A stretch of 64,000 bases of DNA from Bacteroidia bacterium. Its GTDB lineage: Bacteria > Bacteroidota > Bacteroidia > UKL13-3. Location: assembly GCA_021740845.1 (NCBI GenBank), contig JAIOYZ010000012.1:1-64000 (forward strand), given 5' to 3'. Under the pieces are notes generated by a model that made no database searches, had not been told where the DNA came from, and saw nothing but the letters and a program-made list of their open reading frames with translations. Positions 3,497-50,542 of the stretch are shown one piece after another; the stretch's first letter is position 1, and each line of letters begins with the position of its first letter. The position numbers and the translations under genes are program-made.

Positions 3497-4285
3497 CTAT
3501 TCAATTGAATGCACACTTACCATATCATCCATATTTCCACTTAATTTTGGAGCATTTGGCTCTGTTTCGCTATGGAGCACATATCCATCTGTTTCAAAAC
3601 TATATGTTTCTGGATTTTGAAACATTTCATTAACATCCATTACTAAGTTGATCTTTGGGGATTTCGATTTTAATTTATATTCTTTCAAATCCAAAATTGT
3701 GGTTGGTAAATTTGAATCTCCACCTAAATCAAAAGAATAATTTGTACCTTTAGAAGTTGGCCCATTTATACGGAAAAAGATATACCCAGTACTCCATGTC
3801 CAAAACATTCCATAGGCAGGGTCTAAAGCTCCTTCTTGTAGACCCTCATGGTTACGTAGTGGATCAACCCCAATTAATAAAGTTAAGCCAACATAATTTC
3901 CAGCGGGCACATTGGAAAGAGTAAATGTTTTTGAGGATTCCACTGCATAATCTAATAAATTGTAATTCCCCAATTTTACATCAGACCCATCTGCTCTTTT
4001 CAAAGTAATGTTAGTTAAATAATGCTTAAGGTCTTTGATAGAAAAGGTATCTCCACCTGCTGTAACGTAACTCTGAGTATTTAAAACAATAGGAGCTCCA
4101 TCAAAATTATAATCCATGGAAAAGGTTATTGAGCCAGTTTCTGGTAAAACAAAACCAGTGAATTGTGTTAAGGTATCGTAAGGATTAACAGTAGGTTCTT
4201 CTTTTTTAGGCGGGTCATCAGATTTACATGACGAAAAAATGGCAGCAAACCCTACAATTAGTCCTAAAATAATTTTAGTTCTCAT
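3497..4285 (-). CDS. MbnP-like copper-associated lipoprotein
   Basis: The protein has 262 residues, with a lipoprotein signal MRTKIILGLIVGFAAIFSSC and Cys at 20. The middle carries the MbnP-family signature: a GVDPLRN segment, then FWTWSTGYIFFRINGPTSKG, followed by a beta-rich C-terminus. MbnP proteins are periplasmic copper-binding partners of MauG-like MbnH enzymes, which modify a Trp of MbnP; the conserved Trp-rich segment is present here. I see YSFDLGG where I recall a His in many relatives, so copper ligation may differ. It is first in a two-gene operon with the di-heme peroxidase and is preceded by a good promoter (4310-4339). No methanobactin genes are nearby, so the pair probably serves general copper handling. 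Confidence 0.8.
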   Translation of the reverse strand: MRTKIILGLIVGFAAIFSSCKSDDPPKKEEPTVNPYDTLTQFTGFVLPETGSITFSMDYNFDGAPIVLNTQSYVTAGGDTFSIKDLKHYLTNITLKRADGSDVKLGNYNLLDYAVESSKTFTLSNVPAGNYVGLTLLIGVDPLRNHEGLQEGALDPAYGMFWTWSTGYIFFRINGPTSKGTNYSFDLGGDSNLPTTILDLKEYKLKSKSPKINLVMDVNEMFQNPETYSFETDGYVLHSETEPNAPKLSGNMDDMVSVHSIE

Positions 4286-4309
4286 AATTCAATTTCATTA
4301 GATCAATTT

Positions 4310-4334
4310 CAAATATAAAGAAACTTTATATTTG
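4310..4334. promoter_or_regulatory. 25-bp palindrome joining divergent -7 boxes
   Basis: CAAATATAAAG and CTTTATATTTG are perfect 11-bp inverted repeats separated by AAA. Each arm contains a TATATTTG -7 box, one facing the MbnP-like gene and one (4327-4334) facing yajQ. No clear -33 TTG is visible for the yajQ direction. It may be an operator, or simply two back-to-back -7 elements. Confidence 0.5.
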
Positions 4335-4339
4335 CCCAA
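4310..4339 (-). promoter_or_regulatory. Promoter of the MbnP/MbnH-like operon
   Basis: Read on the minus strand there is TTG (4339-4337), a 19-base spacer, then TATATTTG (4317-4310), an excellent match to the Bacteroidota TTG-N19-TAnnTTTG consensus. It lies 25 bp upstream of the ATG at 4285. Confidence 0.7.
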
Positions 4340-4396
4340 GCAAGGTAGTACACTCCCTTCTAATTTATTATTAATTTTTACTTAAATAAAATTGAC

Positions 4397-47683: not shown

Positions 47684-48560
47684 TGTTATTTCTCCTTTTA
47701 TGCTTCCATCTTCTATGACTCCATAACCAAGATTCTGGATTACGTAAGATAATTTTCTCTAACAAATGCATGTGTGTTTCTGTAATTACATTTTCCTCCA
47801 TTAATTGTGGTTCATTGGTAATTGGTATAAAATCAATCTCATAAAAGCCTCTTTTTACACGAACCATTTCACCATATAAAACAGGGTAATTAAACTTTTT
47901 TGCTAATTTCTCTACACCCACAAAAACTGGAGTATCTTGGTTTAAGAAAGTCATCCAATGGCAGCCATCAGGACCAGGAGTTTGGTCGGCAACAAATGAA
48001 ACTGCTGTAGGAATATCTTTTCGCTTAAGCATTTCCCTCAAAATGTTTTGCATAGGAATGGTGTACACACCAAAACGTGTTCTAATAAAATTCACGTACC
48101 ATTCAAACCATGGATTAGTAAGTTGGTGATATAACACATCTACTTGGGCGCTTTTTAAATGCAAGGATTGTCCTGCCCATTCCCAATTAGCCATATGCCC
48201 GCATACCAAAATAAAAGGTTGGTTTCTGGCATTTAAGGTTTGAACCAAATGAAGATTATGAAATTTAATATGGCTAGAATAATAGGATTTATTTAAGGTG
48301 GCCATGCACAGAGTTTCTAAGGTTACATCAAATAAATTTCTATAGAAATCCCATGCAGTTTTTTTTATCCATTTCTCATCCTTATCGGGAAAAGAATTTC
48401 GAAGATTTTCAAAAATAACTTTTTTTCTGTAGCCAAAAATATAGTACACCACAAAGCGCAAACCATCCGAAATAAAATATATCACCCTCATTGGAAGTAA
48501 GGCCAATAAATATAATGGAATAGCTAAAATAATATAATACCAGTGAAACTTAGGCTTCAT
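47673..48560 (-). CDS. LpxL/HtrB-family lipid A acyltransferase
   Basis: The protein has 295 residues. One N-terminal membrane segment is followed by the acyltransferase motif HMANWEW (H-x4-E) near residue 115, with KDIPTAVSFVADQTPG and an FLNQDTPVFVG segment. It adds secondary acyl chains to lipid A precursors at the inner membrane. It follows a VOC gene by 3 bp and overlaps the amidohydrolase, so these genes form one transcript. Confidence 0.92.
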   Translation of the reverse strand: MKPKFHWYYIILAIPLYLLALLPMRVIYFISDGLRFVVYYIFGYRKKVIFENLRNSFPDKDEKWIKKTAWDFYRNLFDVTLETLCMATLNKSYYSSHIKFHNLHLVQTLNARNQPFILVCGHMANWEWAGQSLHLKSAQVDVLYHQLTNPWFEWYVNFIRTRFGVYTIPMQNILREMLKRKDIPTAVSFVADQTPGPDGCHWMTFLNQDTPVFVGVEKLAKKFNYPVLYGEMVRVKRGFYEIDFIPITNEPQLMEENVITETHMHLLEKIILRNPESWLWSHRRWKHKRRNNNEN

Positions 48561-48563
48561 TAA

Positions 48564-48911
48564 TTACTCTCTAGCGTGAATTCCAATTCGGTTTCCTTCA
48601 CTATCTTCACAAATTCCTGTATAACCAAACTCTTCGCTTATAAAGGCAGCAGGGCGTAAAATTTTGCCACCTAATTTTTCGGCCAGGGCCATTTGCTCTT
48701 GAATTGGCATTCTGGCATTTAAATAAACCATTACACCTGCAAAGGAAGGTTTGTAGGCAACGTGTTGAACCAAGGCCCCTTGTTGCCCTCCAAGAATTGC
48801 CATTTTAAAATCACCTAAATCCTGAAGGTGAATATTTGCATTTAGGAATTTTTCATAAAACTCCATTGCCCGGGTCATGTTGCTAACCGGAATTTCAAAC
48901 CATGTTATCAT
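48564..48911 (-). CDS. VOC (glyoxalase-like) family protein, short
   Basis: The protein has 115 residues with one VOC fold: WFEIPVSNMTRAMEFYEKFL at the start, the middle GALVQHVAYKPSFAGVMVYL and the end EDSEGNRIGIHAR, with metal-ligand candidates in the usual places. The reaction is unknown. It lies between a second VOC gene (12 bp) and the acyltransferase. Confidence 0.88.
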   Translation of the reverse strand: MITWFEIPVSNMTRAMEFYEKFLNANIHLQDLGDFKMAILGGQQGALVQHVAYKPSFAGVMVYLNARMPIQEQMALAEKLGGKILRPAAFISEEFGYTGICEDSEGNRIGIHARE

Positions 48912-48923
48912 ATTTTTAGCATA

Positions 48924-49301
48924 TTAATGAGGAGGTTCCCATAATTCGATTTTATTTCCTTCAGGATCTATCACCCAGCCAAACTTTCCAAATTCACTAG
49001 AATCTGTTTTATCCAAAACGTTAACGCCTTCCGATTTTAATTGCGGCAATAAAGTATCTAAATCGGCTACGGTAAAATTAACCATAAAAGAAGAGTTTGA
49101 AGGATTGAAATATTCAGTTTTCTCTTCAAAAAAACTAAAAACTTGAGATCCTCCAGGATGTTCCTCAATAAATACTTTTGGTTCAAAAACTGCACCCCAA
49201 TCTTGCATTGAAATACCCAAATGCTTGATATACCAAGCCAGCATGGCCGGTTTATCTTTGCATTTTAAAAACACACCACCTAAACCTGTTACTCTTTTCA
49301 T
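48924..49301 (-). CDS. VOC (glyoxalase-like) family protein, long
   Basis: The protein has 125 residues with one VOC fold: VTGLGGVFLKCKDKPAMLAWYIKHLGI, SFMVNFTVADLDTLLPQL and WVIDPEGNKIELWEPP, the last with the metal-ligand Glu. It differs enough from its neighbour not to be a recent copy. The substrate is unknown. Confidence 0.9.
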   Translation of the reverse strand: MKRVTGLGGVFLKCKDKPAMLAWYIKHLGISMQDWGAVFEPKVFIEEHPGGSQVFSFFEEKTEYFNPSNSSFMVNFTVADLDTLLPQLKSEGVNVLDKTDSSEFGKFGWVIDPEGNKIELWEPPH

Positions 49302-49303
49302 AA

Positions 49304-49822
49304 TTATTTTGATTTTCTTTTAAATGTAAATCCCGCTACAACAGAAAACAATAGCCCAACTGGTAATATCTCGGAAATGGTTATTAAAAATGCCCAAAAT
49401 GGATTTTCATAAAGTTTCATATAACCTTCCATTTCTGTTTTCATTTCCAAAATAAGTTGTTCATCTAAGCCACTATTCTTAGCCTTCTCCATTTCGTAAT
49501 GGGAATAATCTGCCATAAACTCGGGATACAGGTATTTATTCACCATTAACCAAGCCAAAGCATAAATAACAGACGATATTAGGGTAATCCACAAACCGGT
49601 AAGAAAGGCCCAACCAAAGGAAAAATTAGCATCGCCCAGAGAATTTCTGGTTTGCCAAACACCAACAAAAATAAAAGCAAGAGCAATTGCCATGGCAATA
49701 TATCCATATACCATTGCATTCTCAAAATTGGGATTATCTTTATTAATAACCCAAAGCATTAACATCCAAAATCCATTTATGGTTCCAGAGATCAAGCCAT
49801 TGCGCCAAATAATTGTTCGCAT
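49304..49822 (-). CDS. DUF4199 family membrane protein
   Basis: The frame extends to 49936, but the ATG at 49822 (MRTIIWRNGLISGTING) begins a protein of 172 residues typical of DUF4199: membrane helices near 10-28, 38-58, 68-95 and 140-165, with a hydrophilic loop (YSHYEMEKAKNSGLDEQ) before the last. The function is unknown. It heads the run with the VOC, acyltransferase and amidohydrolase genes. Confidence 0.85.
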   Translation of the reverse strand: MRTIIWRNGLISGTINGFWMLMLWVINKDNPNFENAMVYGYIAMAIALAFIFVGVWQTRNSLGDANFSFGWAFLTGLWITLISSVIYALAWLMVNKYLYPEFMADYSHYEMEKAKNSGLDEQLILEMKTEMEGYMKLYENPFWAFLITISEILPVGLLFSVVAGFTFKRKSK

Positions 49823-49980: not shown

Positions 49981-50054
49981 GGGCCTATAGCTCATTCGGT
50001 TAGAGCATCTGACTCATAATCAGGGGGTGCCTGGTTCGATCCCAGGTGGGCCCA
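49981..50054 (+). tRNA. tRNA with CAT anticodon (Ile2 or elongator Met)
   Basis: The 74-base gene folds as a full cloverleaf: acceptor GGGCCTA with TGGGCCC (one G-T pair), D stem GCTC/GAGC, anticodon stem TCTGA/TCAGG with loop CTCATAA, and T stem CCTGG/CCAGG with loop TTCGATC. The discriminator is A, and CCA is not encoded. The CAT anticodon fits either tRNA-Met or the lysidine-modified tRNA-Ile2; the context GACTCATAATC resembles Ile2, but I cannot decide between them. Confidence 0.93.
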
Positions 50055-50141
50055 CAGAAATCAGTTTGGGTGTGAGTGCGAGAGTGCTCACACTTACAAA
50101 TGGTTTTCTTCTTCTCCTCACCCAAACTCCAACTCAAACTT
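50052..50141 (+). repeat. 90-bp direct repeat, first copy, abutting the tRNA
   Basis: It begins with the last three bases of the tRNA (CCA) and is identical to 50251-50340 except at one base. It contains a nested hairpin: AGTTTGGGTG (50063-50072) with CACCCAAACT (50119-50128), enclosing GTGTGAG (50070-50076) with CTCACAC (50087-50093). Just after it is ATGGAAAGC followed by a stop, resembling a decayed start of the gene that follows the second copy. Confidence 0.9.
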
Positions 50142-50250
50142 AATAATTTTAGAATGGAAAGCTAAGGTTCACTCCGAAAGCAATAATCTCAACTCTATTA
50201 TTTTTAAAAAAATTTAACCCAAAATAAATTTTAAGAGTGGTATGCATGAA

Positions 50251-50340
50251 CCACAGAAATCAGTTTGGGTGTGAGTGCGAGAGTGCTCACACTTACAAAT
50301 GGTTTTCTTCTTCTCCTAACCCAAACTCCAACTCAAACTT
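50251..50340 (+). repeat. 90-bp direct repeat, second copy
   Basis: It differs from the first copy at a single base (C to A within the second hairpin arm). It ends 4 bp before the start of the GIY-YIG remnant. The 109 bp between the copies holds nothing recognisable apart from the decayed start. Confidence 0.9.
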
Positions 50341-50344
50341 TTAA

Positions 50345-50542
50345 ATGGAATCCATAAATCAAGGCGAAAACGTTTTCTCTTGCTATATCATCTTCAGCAT
50401 GACTCTTAATAAATATTTTATTGGAATCACTTCTGAAGGTGCCCAAAACAGATTAATTAAGCATAACACTTCTGCGGATGGGAACTCTTTTACCTCTAAG
50501 ACCAATAGCATTATATTCCCTCATTACAACTTTAGGGTTTAA
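50345..50542 (+). pseudogene. Truncated GIY-YIG endonuclease
   Basis: The 65-codon frame contains the N-terminal half of a Bacteroidota GIY-YIG protein: CYIIFSMTLNKYFIGITSEG corresponds to YILYS...LNRYYIGxT, followed by RLIKHNTSADGNSFTSKTN. The catalytic C-terminal part (the IEKHIK helix with its Glu) is missing, and the frame ends soon after. I therefore read it as a remnant. Intact members are single-strand-type nucleases, often misannotated as UvrC-like. Confidence 0.7.

Follow-up and report, generated by a model that had tools for sequence, protein, structure and literature searches.

The region considered here lies within a window of 64,000 nucleotides, by which we mean the whole stretch of Bacteroidia DNA that was analysed, and it opens on the plus strand with an intact tRNA gene carrying the anticodon CAT, which we take to be of the Ile2 type and which is the putatively invaded gene (49981-50055 according to ARAGORN; 49981-50054, with 63.3 bits, according to Rfam RF00005). 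On the same strand follow two direct repeats of 90 nt each, differing at one base (99% alike), as the initial annotation had recognised: the first (50052-50141), which begins on the final three (Rfam) or four (ARAGORN) bases of the tRNA, is structured and, in the alignment to G009 and G012, is made up of the last bases of the tRNA and its own 3' trailer; the second (50251-50340) holds a duplicated tRNA 3' end (CCACAG) together with the trailer. A plus-strand spacer of 109 bp (50142-50250), without significant likeness to GIY-YIG or tRNA sequences, separates them. The truncated GIY-YIG nuclease frame, also correctly placed in that annotation, starts with ATGGAATCC 4 bp beyond the second repeat and spans 65 codons (50345-50542, plus strand). 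Its score against Pfam PF01541 is 22.3 bits over residues 12-51 only, just below the curated cut-off of 22.6, so that it looks like a truncated member of this family; five relatives found at the same tRNA score 26.8-39.8 bits against the same cut-off, and in the alignment with six same-tRNA relatives the window copy is without the conserved C-terminal half, including the catalytic Glu. Among 93 other GIY-YIG proteins, its best match is L131, an element at the same tRNA in G025, a host belonging to another genus. In the window copy, the remnant test detected no tRNA remnant behind the ORF, and the hairpin test applied to the surveyed loci detected no terminator. The window tRNA is shared in full by six genomes of the genus; the genes at 48168-49304, which in the window lie upstream of it and inverted, are found downstream of the same tRNA in G009 (L193) and G012 (L194), and the frame at 48924-49301 is presumably glyoxalase-like.

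The 90-nt repeat folds better than shuffled sequences (z -2.57 and, in a second run with 4 extra bases, -2.70), and it had been proposed to be one part of a repeat-nuclease class. This did not hold. In the genome of origin, full-length copies are limited to the two in the window, and across 98 genomes, this one included, the remaining matches (E <= 0.001) cover only 23-33 nt each. Moreover, the first 50-56 nt of the repeat can be aligned to the sequence that trails this tRNA in G009 and G012, the window tRNA and trailer being 88-89% alike to both, and no GIY-YIG gene was found at the window-type tRNA of these two genomes. Since its first part matches trailers that are free of a nuclease, the repeat is read as a duplicated tRNA end with its own trailer, and the idea of a mobile structured unit was rejected on the basis of the two full copies and of this trailer homology. 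A decayed second gene start had also been suspected after the first repeat; ATGGAAAGCTAA is indeed present at 50154, inside the spacer, and the likeness of the spacer to the GIY-YIG region is no better than that of shuffled sequence (p 0.19 overall and 0.24 for its first 60 nt), so that this candidate was discarded too. The spacer is possibly the remainder of a deleted first unit.

The genome of origin (G000) contains twelve matches to PF01541. GIY-YIG genes lie behind tRNA-Arg(CCT) on contig C41, behind tRNA-Asp on C17, and between or behind tRNA-Asn pieces on C51 and C57; the ORF on C17 runs into another, incomplete copy of this tRNA-Asp and terminates there, so that its stop codon is tRNA sequence. 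Arrays of tRNA pieces were seen at several of these places. On the minus strand of C41 (L035, about 4043-4352) the GIY-YIG gene follows the intact tRNA-Arg(CCT), upstream of which stand three tandem 78-bp copies of its 5' half in which the D-loop carries a GC-rich hairpin, and on C57 (L038, 794-1236) tandem 126-bp repeats consist of the 5' half of tRNA-Ser(GCT) plus upstream sequence, with a hairpin in the tRNA part. Contigs C17, C51, and C57 end at most about 320 bases from the GIY-YIG match, in tRNA-fragment arrays, and since contigs of this genome end inside them, short-read assemblies probably represent such arrays incompletely. Further arrays were observed in other genomes: contig C34 of G145 carries at least six tandem GIY-YIG copies, most of them about 365 bp apart and the last with an internal stop (22 matches genome-wide), and contig C1 of G224 has two sets of three tandem copies with a spacing of about 320 bp. 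In Litoribacter ruber (L254), nine tRNA genes (six Asp, three Gly), several of them 101 bp apart, are packed into about 1.3 kb upstream of the GIY-YIG gene at 2001, together with tRNA-Asp 5' pieces, an amplification of whole tRNAs beside a GIY-YIG unit.

The survey of GIY-YIG loci embedded 107 short-frame PF01541 loci from 39 genomes (seven loci from the genome of origin and further batches of 29, 60, and 11); it left out the long-frame matches L027, L028, L030, and L031 of the genome of origin, as well as L032, and the batch of 29 was drawn from among the matches listed, leaving out frames longer than 250 aa and second matches inside a fetched locus. An intact tRNA gene lies within 450 nt upstream on the same strand in 38/107 loci and on the opposite strand in one; downstream of the GIY-YIG gene, the same-strand and opposite-strand counts are 3/107 and 1/107. 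When only the 82 loci having 450 nt on both sides are considered, upstream tRNAs are on the same strand in 32 cases and on the opposite strand in one. The expectation that GIY-YIG genes sit beside tRNAs was thus borne out, the case of an intact tRNA being found in 24 of the 39 sampled genomes; a looser count, which takes in weak fragment matches (e.g., G066) as well as the hand-added G017 and window-type tRNA sites, gives a tRNA or a fragment beside a GIY-YIG gene in 32/60 searched genomes, the genome of origin included.

The usual order is that of an intact tRNA, a terminator, the ORF, and, at the stop codon of the latter, a broken fragment of that tRNA's 3' part. Indeed, a terminator-like hairpin follows the tRNA in 31/38 loci (1/38 in the control placed inside the ORF), and a remnant of the same tRNA was detected at the ORF end in 27 of the 36 testable loci of set 1 and not detected in the other nine, versus 1/36 in the reverse-complement control. 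In a second set, from named genomes, such a remnant is present in 17/20 loci; this set 2 comprises 25 of the 33 loci of the window-type subfamily, 20 of them with an intact tRNA within 450 nt upstream (eight loci were omitted, seven without such a tRNA and L246, from a genome already in set 1), and it shares genomes with the survey of the window-type tRNA described below. In a few loci, e.g., L075, L116, and L248, the remnant is barely above the threshold. Measured from the end of the stop codon, the start of the remnant in the two sets together ranges from 46 bases upstream to 73 bases downstream, and it is at or upstream of this point in 36/44 cases, so that the nuclease frame frequently ends in tRNA sequence. 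Likeness to the tRNA was also detected upstream of it, in 12/34 and 8/18 loci, in the form of tandem 5' pieces where inspected. At L101, L113, L256, L313, L323, and L327, the intact tRNA follows the ORF rather than preceding it. The initial annotation had envisaged a unit inserting or duplicating next to a tRNA 3' end; the link with tRNAs and the duplication were both recovered, but the duplicated pieces start inside the tRNA gene, anywhere from the acceptor or D-arm through the variable region, which suggests that the element inserts into the gene itself and not next to its end.

As far as the breadth of the phenomenon is concerned, small genes of the "GIY-YIG nuclease family" are plentiful in Bacteroidota genomes, where they are usually annotated as generic nucleases. 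A scan of genome contigs for the window-type subfamily returned 33 loci, 32 of which have a tRNA or a fragment within 700 nt according to the program; the 33rd, L253, has a tRNA fragment recognised by eye only. The hosts include isolates of Algoriphagus, Flavobacterium, Algibacter, Portibacter, and Litoribacter, and also one Candidatus Dojkabacteria MAG. In the latter (L256, about 1937-2433) a tRNA-Asp 5' fragment with a hairpin precedes the GIY-YIG gene, an intact tRNA-Asp overlaps the end of the ORF, and a hairpin-bearing 3' remnant follows; it is possible that this locus reflects a transfer between phyla or, alternatively, a binning error. A profile of the tRNA-linked proteins matches 93 of the 148 genomes sampled across the phylum. 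In a phylum-wide sample, all 29 loci have a tRNA or a fragment, with an intact same-strand tRNA upstream in 24/29 and an opposite-strand one in 0/29, it being understood that the sample consists mostly of per-genome best matches to that very profile, and hence leans toward this kind of locus by construction, and that one of its members (L301) repeats L096 of the earlier survey.

The AlphaFold2 model of a relative (pLDDT 84.5, pTM 0.74) consists of one GIY-YIG domain and a helical tail. The Tyr, Tyr, Arg, and Glu of GIY-YIG domains are catalytic. Residues Y5, Y16, G18, R27, and E66 are invariant in 13 relatives, and a catalytic role of the Tyr, Arg, and Glu residues is given in the accessible part of PMC2988022. 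The Foldseek search of the PDB gave no match at E <= 0.001; its top six matches, at probability 1.00 and E-values of 0.004-0.03, are UPF0213 and Slx1 proteins, the title of the Slx1 structure entry referring to the processing of branched DNA. No NCBIfam family was matched above its cut-off, and one query protein each against phage and plasmid records gave no match.

The phylogenetic tree was built on 93 loci, the first 96 minus three fragments shorter than 55 aa (the later batch of 11 loci was left out), and on 100 columns; it has many open forks, and the window row is a long branch in it, grouping with L131, from the same tRNA in G025. Linkage to a tRNA requires five changes on this tree versus about 31 when shuffled, so that, as judged from these sequences, tRNA-linked and unlinked GIY-YIG proteins appear to be largely separate. 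Among the 43 tRNA-linked rows, for which the CAT tRNAs were sorted by their first bases into three kinds (the names given to them being our assumption), the identity of the tRNA requires 21 changes (shuffled mean 32.4, minimum 29) and the host family 17 (shuffled mean 16.7, minimum 15). By this measure, the nuclease tree tracks the identity of the tRNA and not the host family.

Unoccupied sites were sought, and found, in the relatives. At the accA-tRNA-Asp site, for which the best 30 of the loci of 59 genomes were compared, the tRNA-Asp is present in 28/30 loci and is followed by a GIY-YIG gene in 2/28 (G000 and G026); the window-type tRNA was found in 50/60 genomes, and among the best 30 of these 50 loci eight carry a GIY-YIG gene. 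Presence and absence of the nuclease at the same tRNA are therefore both seen in relatives, synteny being shown for the accA-tRNA-Asp site only, since the flanks of G002 and G003, when compared, have nothing in common beyond the tRNA region and the trailer. Remnants of the tRNA are concentrated at occupied loci: taking both tRNAs together, they were detected in 8/10 occupied versus 2/48 unoccupied loci (2/2 versus 1/26 for the accA-tRNA-Asp, 6/8 versus 1/22 for the window-type tRNA), the occupied loci without a detected remnant being the window and L217, which is cut by a contig end. By eye, G028 at the tRNA-Asp and G019 at the window-type tRNA have a scarred look. In G002, the stretch that follows the remnant matches what G003 (92% over 65 bp) and G017 (87.5% over 64 bp), two genomes having no GIY-YIG gene at this tRNA, carry as the native end of the tRNA and the trailer directly behind it; the trailer that adjoins the intact tRNA of G002 differs from theirs and by eye resembles that of G015. 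On this sequence comparison, we regard G002 as a filled site with its native trailer displaced behind the insert. G015 is the one clear case of a diverged imported part accompanied by a native displaced part: in its remnant, the 3' half (positions 41-75) does not differ from the window tRNA at any base, and the 3' half of its intact tRNA is divergent. The 5' acceptor strand of this intact tRNA carries matching changes, and for this reason the whole tRNA may be foreign or may have been compensated later.

What the loci themselves display is the anatomy of the units, the fact that relatives differ in whether a unit occupies a given tRNA, a native trailer displaced in one case, and a nuclease phylogeny in line with tRNA identity. 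We consider it likely that a large group of selfish GIY-YIG elements invades tRNA genes of Bacteroidota in a homing-type manner and rebuilds them, and that the window contains one such element in a decayed state. This agrees with the suggestion, made from the window alone, of a selfish-looking single-nuclease unit that duplicates at tRNA genes and decays, GIY-YIG genes being found behind tRNAs, usually with a duplicated tRNA 3' part; moreover, the match of the architecture with that of the mORFs of fungal mitochondria, discussed below, is the reason why the units are read as homing-type elements. As for their cutting, repair route, mobility, and selfishness, we infer the following course. The unit would consist of a tRNA 3' part, a terminator, and one small GIY-YIG ORF; the nuclease would make its cut within an arm or a loop of a tRNA gene not yet occupied, and repair from an occupied copy, with the tRNA homology as a guide, would insert the unit. 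The 5' part of the host gene and the imported 3' part would then make up a whole tRNA, and the remnant downstream of the nuclease gene would be the displaced, dead 3' part of the host gene. Repeated rounds might generate tandem arrays, and the units might subsequently decay into tRNA fragments and trailer copies such as those of the window.

The window shares with the group the same tRNA, the same nuclease clade, and a duplicated tRNA 3' end; against this explanation stand the lack of a detected remnant and terminator in the window copy and the fact that its GIY-YIG frame follows the second trailer and is preceded by a spacer, and we read the copy as a decayed and rearranged homing-type unit. 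Also against it are the nine set-1 loci without a detected remnant, the loci whose intact tRNA follows the ORF, and the few in which whole tRNAs are duplicated (L123, L243, L254, and L326). Moreover, the nuclease is little more than a catalytic domain, which leaves the target specificity unaccounted for, and self-cutting must be limited somehow, given that an intact rebuilt tRNA should stay a target. A cut of the tRNA DNA guided by structure or by the T-loop is plausible by analogy with SegB, which cuts inside tRNA genes. Among the matches listed in searches of open-licence papers, preprints excluded, we found no description of tRNA-linked GIY-YIG units in bacteria, nor of a tRNA-invading lifestyle with a spare tRNA end, an absence that is weak evidence. 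If these are tRNA-invading selfish elements, then tRNA genes are attacked by parasites of a few hundred bases; this would explain numerous tRNA fragments and tandem arrays of the phylum, perhaps also broken contigs, and would provide a compact system for understanding how a parasite uses an essential gene as a home without killing its host.

A separate puzzle concerns the hairpins in the dead tRNA halves. Stems of at least 7 bp are present in 33/44 remnants, 19/89 intact tRNAs, and 3.9% of shuffled remnants, and the pattern TCC[CG]...[CG]GGA or CCCCG...CGGGG occurs in 33/44 remnants versus 4/89 intact tRNAs. These hairpins replace parts of the anticodon arm, of the variable/T region, or, in L123, of the D-arm; the core of the T-loop is retained in 19 of the 39 remnants that reach the 3' end versus 84/89 intact tRNAs, and the SegB-type motif in 3/39 versus 32/89. 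The Dojkabacteria locus (L256) has hairpins of the same kind. At first they looked element-specific, because three of the four copies of CCGATAGCTATCGG in the genome of origin are inside tRNA-Asn fragments. This idea was rejected since the palindrome TCCCGAT(0-6)ATCGGGA is dispersed in 36/60 genomes (138 copies in G033, 94 in G065, and nine in G000). In 30 palindrome loci, one per genome, seven palindromes are in tRNA pieces (L261, L262, and L265 by program; L272, L280, L282, and L285 by eye) and three more are near tRNAs (L269, L276, and L279); on these counts, palindromes look enriched at tRNAs without being exclusive to them. No paper containing CCGATAGCTATCGG was found in the open-licence literature. 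It is conceivable, although we give the idea only a small chance, that a distinct class of two-part mobile systems exists in Bacteroidota, as well as in one or more Candidatus Dojkabacteria MAGs, in which a minimal structure-selective GIY-YIG nuclease would enter and rebuild tRNA genes and would put TCCCGA...TCGGGA-type hairpins into the arms of the displaced tRNA halves, thereby marking this copy as uncuttable and blocking its recombination with the intact tRNA; the dispersed palindromes would then be products of the same machinery.

The same loci might also be explained by a tRNA amplification brought about by a nearby GIY-YIG nuclease and selected for dosage, as with SegB and tRNA-Tyr in phages, in place of a selfish invasion. 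According to the accessible part of PMC13096335, SegB cuts within tRNA genes and drives tandem repeats of a tRNA and a truncated segB; tandem arrays are seen here as well, and extra tRNAs are whole in L243, L254, and L326 and nearly whole in L123. However, most of the extra copies are broken and bear hairpins, and Rfam, which called 15 tRNAs in 12 loci, recognised among the remnants only that of L123, so that we think this explanation unlikely.

We hold it to be very unlikely that the loci are scars of integrase-type islands or phages, with tRNA 3' ends as attachment sites, the fragments as attL/attR, and the GIY-YIG gene as a passenger. Integration does typically leave duplicated tRNA 3' parts and regenerated tRNAs, and this is what favours the idea. 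Nevertheless, the tandem units of roughly 320-380 bp have room for little beyond the GIY-YIG ORF, and the starting points of the duplications vary along the tRNA. In addition, in 11/26 compared loci the duplication takes in the sequence following the tRNA, the nuclease tree tracks the tRNA, and phage and plasmid records gave no match with the one query each.

About as improbable is an ordinary host-function GIY-YIG protein (of the UPF0213/YhbQ or Slx1 type) lying behind tRNAs by chance or for expression, with fragments arising from unrelated slippage: the nearest solved structures and the 54 of 96 sampled loci in which the program found neither a tRNA nor a fragment (L053, one of them, has a fragment by eye) speak for it, but the separation of linked from unlinked proteins on the tree, the bias in strand and order, the remnants at stop codons, and the presence or absence at the same tRNA speak against it. 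A group I intron was rejected, since the Rfam gathering search of 12 loci gave tRNAs only.

The selfish homing-type units proposed here can finally be compared with known systems. A close parallel in architecture is that of the mORFs, endonuclease ORFs in mitochondrial genes of Glomus (atp6, atp9, cox2, and nad3) and Allomyces (atp6), whose order, as described in the accessible sections of PMC3630166, is that of the host 5' part joined to an imported 3' part, the endonuclease ORF, and the displaced native 3' part; according to the same sections, the endonuclease of the atp9 mORF is of the GIY-YIG type, and in the atp6 mORFs the displaced 3' part is closer to relatives than the imported one. 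The tRNA units likewise show a nuclease ORF and a displaced native 3' part (G002 versus G003/G017), behind a tRNA whose 3' part is putatively imported. Unlike the mORFs, which reside in protein genes of fungal mitochondria, they target bacterial tRNA genes, of many tRNA species; moreover, their nuclease is minimal, a terminator separates the tRNA from the ORF, and the remnant contains hairpins.

A second parallel is SegB of phages T4/T6, a homing endonuclease of the GIY-YIG type that is free-standing and encoded within a cluster of tRNAs (PMC13096335, PMC2988022, accessible parts), and whose repeats involve a microhomology between the 5' end of the tRNA and the 3' end of segB (PMC13096335, accessible part). 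Both cases have a GIY-YIG gene beside tRNA genes and tandem repeats of tRNA and nuclease, as far as the accessible text on SegB goes. We noticed that the SegB motif RAWTSGAAC is the reverse complement of the tRNA T-loop (the terms T-loop and T-arm are absent from the text of PMC13096335). In contrast to our units, SegB is a phage gene between tRNA genes, and the accessible text describes neither an imported tRNA 3' half nor a displaced remnant. UPF0213/YhbQ and Slx1 (1zg2, 1ywl, 4xlg, 6seh, and 7cq2; Foldseek E 0.004-0.03) have a nuclease domain of the same fold and size. Lastly, group I introns with homing endonucleases occur in tRNA genes (PMC3984707, accessible part), and like them the units would place a selfish nuclease gene in a tRNA gene without the tRNA being lost; unlike them, they have no intron in the 12 tested loci.
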